Shown here one piece after another: positions 26,829 through 27,135 of a DNA stretch of 31,834 nucleotides. The position numbers and the translations under genes were made by a program. The notes under the pieces are model-generated. The model ran no database searches. It saw nothing but the letters and a program-made list of their open reading frames with translations, and was not told where the DNA came from. Positions within the stretch are counted from its first letter, which is position 1, and every line of letters begins with the position of its first letter. The stretch spans positions 1-31,834 of IMG/VR virus record IMGVR_UViG_3300009684_000109, one strand, 5' to 3'. The DNA is from a virus.

Positions 26829-26929
26829 GGCAGCCGACCCGGCGCGTAGATAAGTATCACTTTCGTTTTGCCACCAAAAAAGCGTTATAAATCAAGGACT
26901 TAGCTATGAGCACACCAAAACATCCACCT
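26829..26929 (+). repeat. Left arm of the large inverted repeat
   Basis: About 101 bases. The inner 60 bases match the reverse complement of 27043-27135 with four mismatches; the outer part has an eight-base insertion and a block of about six mismatches. The inner part includes ATCAAGGACTTAGCT and an ATG (26906). It lies in a 481-base stretch without a conventional gene. Confidence 0.85.
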
Positions 26930-26944
26930 ATATATATATCTTAA
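26906..26944 (+). other. Mini-ORF in the left arm (12 aa)
   Basis: ATG with an AAGGA site seven bases upstream; encodes MSTPKHPPIYIS and stops at TAA. It shares its first eight residues with the 41-aa ORF on the opposite strand. Whether it is translated is unknown; it may be a leader peptide or a relic. Confidence 0.3.
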
Positions 26945-27066
26945 GAAAAGTATTTATATATATGTGTCTTTATGGATGTGTGCACATGAACGCTCGGATA
27001 AAAGCCGCTGTATAATGGGGGTTCCCAGTAGTACCTGAAAACAGGTGGATGTTTGGGTGTGCTCAT
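26941..27066 (-). CDS. Small ORF spanning the inverted-repeat spacer (41 aa)
   Basis: ATG 27066, with AAGGA seven bases upstream. It begins MSTPKHPPVFRYYWEPPL and continues through the spacer to an aromatic/basic end (THIYKYFS). The first eight codons are shared with the left-arm mini-ORF, with one synonymous difference (CCA/CCC). Both ORFs end at the same CTTAAG. The shared start and synonymous change hint at coding, but length and position leave it uncertain. Function unknown. Confidence 0.35.
   Translation of the reverse strand: MSTPKHPPVFRYYWEPPLYSGFYPSVHVHTSIKTHIYKYFS
26978..26994. repeat. 17-bp direct repeat, copy 1
   Basis: GTGTGCACATGAACGCT; contains the palindrome TGTGCACA. It ends 16 bases before a TATAAT box. 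Copy 2 at 27157-27173 differs at one base. Confidence 0.6.
27011..27016 (+). promoter_or_regulatory. Perfect TATAAT -10 box in the inverted-repeat spacer
   Basis: TATAAT in the plus orientation with no good -35 at 16-18 bases (best TGAACG, within the end of the direct repeat). An activator bound to the repeat could compensate. The downstream gene is the 61-aa gene at 27252, after the right arm. Confidence 0.35.
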
Positions 27067-27135
27067 ACCTAAGTCCTTGATTTATAAGGCTTTTTCGGTG
27101 GCAAAACCATTTGGATACTTGTCTACGCGGCTGCC
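27043..27135 (-). repeat. Right arm of the large inverted repeat
   Basis: About 93 bases, reverse complement of the left arm, with a 113-base spacer between the arms. It includes the start of the 41-aa ORF. There is no target-site duplication outside the arms and no transposase nearby. Confidence 0.85.

Follow-up and report, generated by a model that had tools for sequence, protein, structure and literature searches.

A long hairpin at a constant place in related uncultured phages, with the folded shape of one strand apparently kept by selection

What is the role of a long inverted repeat between two early genes of a phage, given that few replication origins and regulatory RNAs have been mapped in uncultured phages? 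For a virus contig of 31,834 nucleotides (IMG/VR record IMGVR_UViG_3300009684_000109, whole stretch analysed, hereafter the window), the original prediction had offered three answers: a MITE-like non-autonomous element, a replication origin or a long hairpin regulatory RNA. The late genes of the window (portal, terminase, capsid) lie on the minus strand and the early genes on the plus strand from 26486, while the last listed open reading frame (ORF) runs past the right end. As predicted, the element is placed between two early genes, ORF 26486-26770 and a gene starting at 27252.

When the repeat was recomputed, its arms, the 113-bp spacer, the 307-base footprint and the 56 matches within the inner 60 bases were all reproduced. 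Of 87 positions in the main arms (26843-26929 and 27043-27129), 77 match. Outside a bulge sits a further 7-bp pair, GGCAGCC (26829-26835) and GGCTGCC (27129-27135), so that the left arm spans 26829-26929, the right arm 27043-27135 and the footprint 307 bp once this pair is counted. The spacer, which would form the apical loop (26930-27042), is AT-rich at one end, again as described before, with 85% A+T over 40 bp (26926-26965), a possible DNA-unwinding tract. The top inverted-repeat score was 116, a value that 40 dinucleotide shuffles of the complete window did not approach (30 at most), and folding z-scores against shuffles reached -13.9 for the plus strand and -18.4 for the minus strand. TGTGCACATGAACRCT is directly repeated at 26978-26994 in the spacer and at 27157-27173, just outside the right arm.

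The early region holds other repeats as well. The near-perfect palindrome GTGTCACNGTGACAC occurs at seven sites within 25627-29824 (25627, 26391, 26764, 27170, 27652, 28048 and 29797), plus 26071; these sites lie between early genes and flank the hairpin on both sides. Relatives carry palindromes of their own at similar places (GTTGCACGGTGCAAC in L009, GTGGGACAGGTGTCCCAC in L008, AATGGGGT-N6-ACCCCATT in L010), and operators or processing hairpins are possible readings of them. Immediately 5' of three early genes stands a 47-bp repeat (27200-27246, 27681-27727, 28077-28123) that contains a GC-rich hairpin and has a ribosome-binding-site-like end. Early genes of the window encode a NinX-like protein (27734-28045, PF10765) and, as unusual cargo for this region, an M28-type peptidase (29814-30962; PF04389 above cut-off, PHROG 4191 peptidase). 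In the relatives G003, G002 and G004, the late block codes for very large proteins (2230-3272 aa), the one in G003 with LPD38 (PF18857).

Over most of its length, TerL of the window is 48-51% identical to TerL of the Pelagibacter phages HTVC023P and HTVC027P, phage 023Pt_psg01 and phage DSL-LC04, and uncultured relatives number in the hundreds. We scanned relatives for inverted repeats without any sequence motif, using loci with enough sequence and a TerL at least 70% identical. A long inverted repeat was present in 51 of the 66 distinct related loci, compared to none of 136 control segments; all element-bearing relatives are metagenomic contigs. The repeat is located 1.2-3.4 kb upstream of terL (median 2.33 kb) and the element is mostly 270-390 nt long across the group. 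Several of the 15 loci without a repeat above the threshold score just under it. The core pattern GATAGATAGATNGNACAGTTTTT matches 33 viral contigs, and in the 29 of these with terL on the fetched stretch, terL lies 2.0-2.9 kb downstream in the same orientation. Rather than being unique and diverging freely in relatives, the arms vary in sequence by clade while each copy stays self-complementary. The hairpin is conserved at a constant place in dozens of related phages.

This constant locus is a strong argument against a mobile repeat. Long terminal inverted repeats that bracket a short AT-rich spacer are common in MITEs and are shared by the element, but the latter is present in a single copy in the window, occupies a fixed syntenic site in the relatives and, in agreement with the first description, lacks a target-site duplication (the flanks TAAAAACGACATTTA and AAGCCGGACAGTATG differ). 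A search for other copies returned the syntenic ones in related phages, but no match in plasmids and only short matches to an arm module (module A, see below) in phages. The MITE-like element of the original prediction can thus be set aside as scarcely credible.

A purely duplex-DNA role of the repeat predicts equal strands, so that a strand bias tells duplex from folded-strand models without experiment. On the terL-sense strand, G.T and A.C mismatches numbered 321 and 137 across clades, where arm composition predicts 218 and 157. With one representative per clade the counts were 130 and 56 (binomial p about 5e-4), and 17 of the 18 informative clades shared the G.T excess (sign test p about 7e-5), in a test that corrected for arm composition and used one copy per clade in place of a full phylogenetic model. 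Likewise, the consensus of four clade alignments folds better on the terL-sense strand. In the window this is the minus strand (26843-27129); the bias comes from the relatives, since the window copy is nearly perfect and, with one G.T and one A.C mismatch, uninformative. Mutational strand bias was considered as the source of the G.T excess and rejected, as the four-fold sites of the antisense early genes lack such a skew, with a G+T content of 0.46-0.50 on the terL-sense strand.

Changes in the two arms are also coupled. Within a clade represented by 26 sequences, pairing holds in 98.2% of cells, as opposed to 32-41% with the partner shifted by 1-3 columns, and compensatory changes occur at six pairs, for example from A-U to U-A or from G-C to A-U. 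None of 500 shuffles had as many doubly changed cells or as high a covariation score, while 103 of 500 had as many such pairs; since the sequences share ancestry and themselves served to derive the structure, the counts should not be read as probabilities. The G.T bias therefore indicates that the folded form of the terL-sense strand matters, as RNA or as single-stranded DNA, and the joint change of both arms suggests that selection maintains the fold of one strand.

Which molecule folds? The early mRNA (window plus strand) could contain a regulatory hairpin that controls translation of the next early gene, which the element precedes; in clades A and C an arm abuts the ATG, and in clade A the outer arm lies directly 5' of the start codon. 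However, the mismatch bias favours the other strand, and in the window and L006 the next start codon is more than 100 bp away from the element, which leaves this reading unlikely. A structured RNA of ~300 nt from the terL-sense strand (window minus) fares better. It could be an independent noncoding RNA, antisense to the early operon, or belong to a late transcript as part of its 5' leader, and would act via a protein or RNase III. Such an RNA would explain wobble and covariation directly, as G.U-compatible mismatches are favoured and the consensus folds better on this very strand, with compensatory changes. On the other hand, no conserved promoter was found upstream in terL sense, the window element has neither promoter nor terminator, the adjoining sequence in clades A and C encodes the start of an early gene product, and the 40-bp tract of 80-95% A+T would be left unexplained. 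In Rfam 15, no family matched at gathering score and the weak matches were sub-threshold. The hairpin RNA suggested originally is thus in accord with the covariation and the strand-specific wobble bias but finds no counterpart in Rfam or in transcription signals at the window element; we consider it possible, and nearly as likely as a role in replication initiation.

The AT-rich tract gives the element a polarity, which in early sense reads left arm, AT tract, remaining loop and right arm. All 24 representatives have 80-95% A+T over 40 bp (median 0.875 versus 0.625 in controls), and in all of them the centre of the longest A/T run falls at 32-42% of element length. The arms of each copy hold one of two modules of about 24 bp: module A (GTAAGTCNTTGATTTATAAGGCTTT or near variants) in the window, L013, L015, L023 and L024, and module B (ACCCGCATGAAYRCTAG and variants) in most other copies. 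The window carries module A in the left arm (26882-26902, minus strand, TAAGTCCTTGATTTATAACGC, one mismatch) and in the right arm (27070-27090, plus strand, TAAGTCCTTGATTTATAAGGC). Inside these modules the sequence matches the IHF consensus WATCAANNNNTTR at 26890-26902 (plus) and 27082-27070 (minus); the consensus fits only in the window, L023 and L024, as a putative site judged from sequence. The two arms change jointly, since those of the window both carry A and those of L006 and L093, its closest relatives, both carry B-like sequence. GATA-type tandem repeats are found within the stem in many clades.

Inverted repeats with an IHF-type site would also suit an attP or a recombinase-invertible segment, and in other phages module B is enriched near tyrosine integrases. 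But the AT tract lies on the same side in all 24 representatives, so no inverted form was seen, and 11 relative contigs, some maybe incomplete, contained no tyrosine integrase in a recombinase search confined to PF00589; we judge this reading very improbable. Only slightly better placed is a signal for DNA packaging, of cos or pac type, close to the terminase genes. The distance of 2.0-2.8 kb to terL and the IHF-type site of A-type copies would fit, but the element sits in the early block with other genes intervening, and the terminally redundant contig G003 ends ~8.6 kb away from it, although contig ends need not be physical ends. A packaging role is therefore improbable as well.

Modules A and B are shared as short intergenic motifs by many unrelated phages (contigs L029-L084 and L224-L300). 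On unrelated viral contigs, A was intergenic at 42 of 47 sites and B at 66 of 86, versus 16 of 47 and 23 of 86 random positions. Iterated 8-mers (at least four copies) stand beside 9% of A and 13% of B sites compared to 1% of other noncoding sequence; they are phage-specific (GTGTCGCA ten times in L075, GGTGGGAA eight times in L321), and most A and B sites are without iterons. Around 50 module A sites outside the group we counted 13 DnaA boxes, a 7-fold enrichment over the background of 0.045 per kb, and some neighbours, viewed without a control set, are primase or helicase genes. Tyrosine integrases account for 10 of the 79 proteins that neighbour module B but do not occur among the families listed for 79 distant proteins, and tRNA genes adjoin some B sites. 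Module B was also found in a few genomes of Burkholderiales, the order to which the phage host perhaps belongs, and in a Polaromonas chromosome (L341:6826-6868) it forms a perfect or near-perfect palindrome, GCAAACCCGCATGGATGCTAGCATTCATGCGGGTTTGC. We rejected B as a conserved host attB, as it is present in just 6 of 399 genomes of one order (module A in 0), and A and B as paired terminators, as most sites outside the phage group are without an inverted partner. Given the intergenic placement, the iterated 8-mers, the DnaA boxes and the nearby integrases, the modules may mark control regions in unrelated phages, without being specific to origins.

Among the readings considered, we tentatively favour, with somewhat less than even confidence, that the element is a conserved cis-acting hairpin that most likely serves as the replication-initiation region of this group. 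The AT-rich tract would open first, and the exposed terL-sense (late-sense) strand would then fold into a long imperfect hairpin. This could offer a structured single-stranded site for priming, either by the primase-helicase of the phage (of DUF927 type in one relative) or by RNA polymerase or primase of the host. A factor from host or phage would bind the arm module (A with its IHF-type site, or B) and thereby position the hairpin. Several observations argue for an origin: the fixed early-region position, the AT tract in every representative, the G.T bias and covariation that imply a folded single strand (the bias fits RNA equally), and the early block downstream of the element in the complete relative G003, which encodes PolA, an exonuclease, a SNF2-type helicase and a DUF927 primase-helicase. 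In addition, module A is intergenic and DnaA-box-enriched elsewhere, with some primase or helicase neighbours, and iterated 8-mers accompany A and B. Tyrosine integrases near B, the lack of iterons at most A and B sites and the 15 of 66 loci without a repeat argue against it. The original prediction of a replication origin is thus consistent with AT tract, wobble bias and covariation, but a DnaA-box cluster is absent at the element hairpins, and GC skew, which is confounded by gene orientation, gave no origin signal. To our knowledge, a long hairpin is not usual in phage origins.

More generally, the element possibly represents a new family of strand-specific hairpins in which shape but not arm sequence is kept across a large uncultured phage group, though we advance this with caution. 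Its late-sense strand would fold as DNA or RNA to start replication or to switch from early to late, and its arms would swap whole 24-bp modules, both together. Because its shape and position suffice to recognise the element in many metagenomic contigs from one common group, it provides a concrete, testable locus.

How does the element compare to known systems? In the open-access papers searched, we did not find a described equivalent, and HTVC023P, HTVC027P and DSL-LC04, despite their related TerL, have no comparable inverted repeat in the stretches around terL. pSC101 and R6K have iteron/IHF replication origins. An AT-rich tract adjoins an IHF site in these origins and a putative IHF-type site in A-type copies, and the tract of the phage element may have a role in unwinding; however, in the phage element a long inverted repeat replaces the iterons, and neither DnaA boxes nor a Rep-type initiator were identified. 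Frpo/ssi are single-stranded-DNA hairpin promoters of conjugative plasmids. As in the phage element, one particular strand folds into a long imperfect hairpin, a few hundred nt in size, and the strand bias and covariation among the relatives likewise point to one folding strand. In contrast to Frpo/ssi, the phage element lies in an early gene block and has an AT tract; the likeness is one of shape, and any priming or transcription from the phage hairpin is hypothetical.
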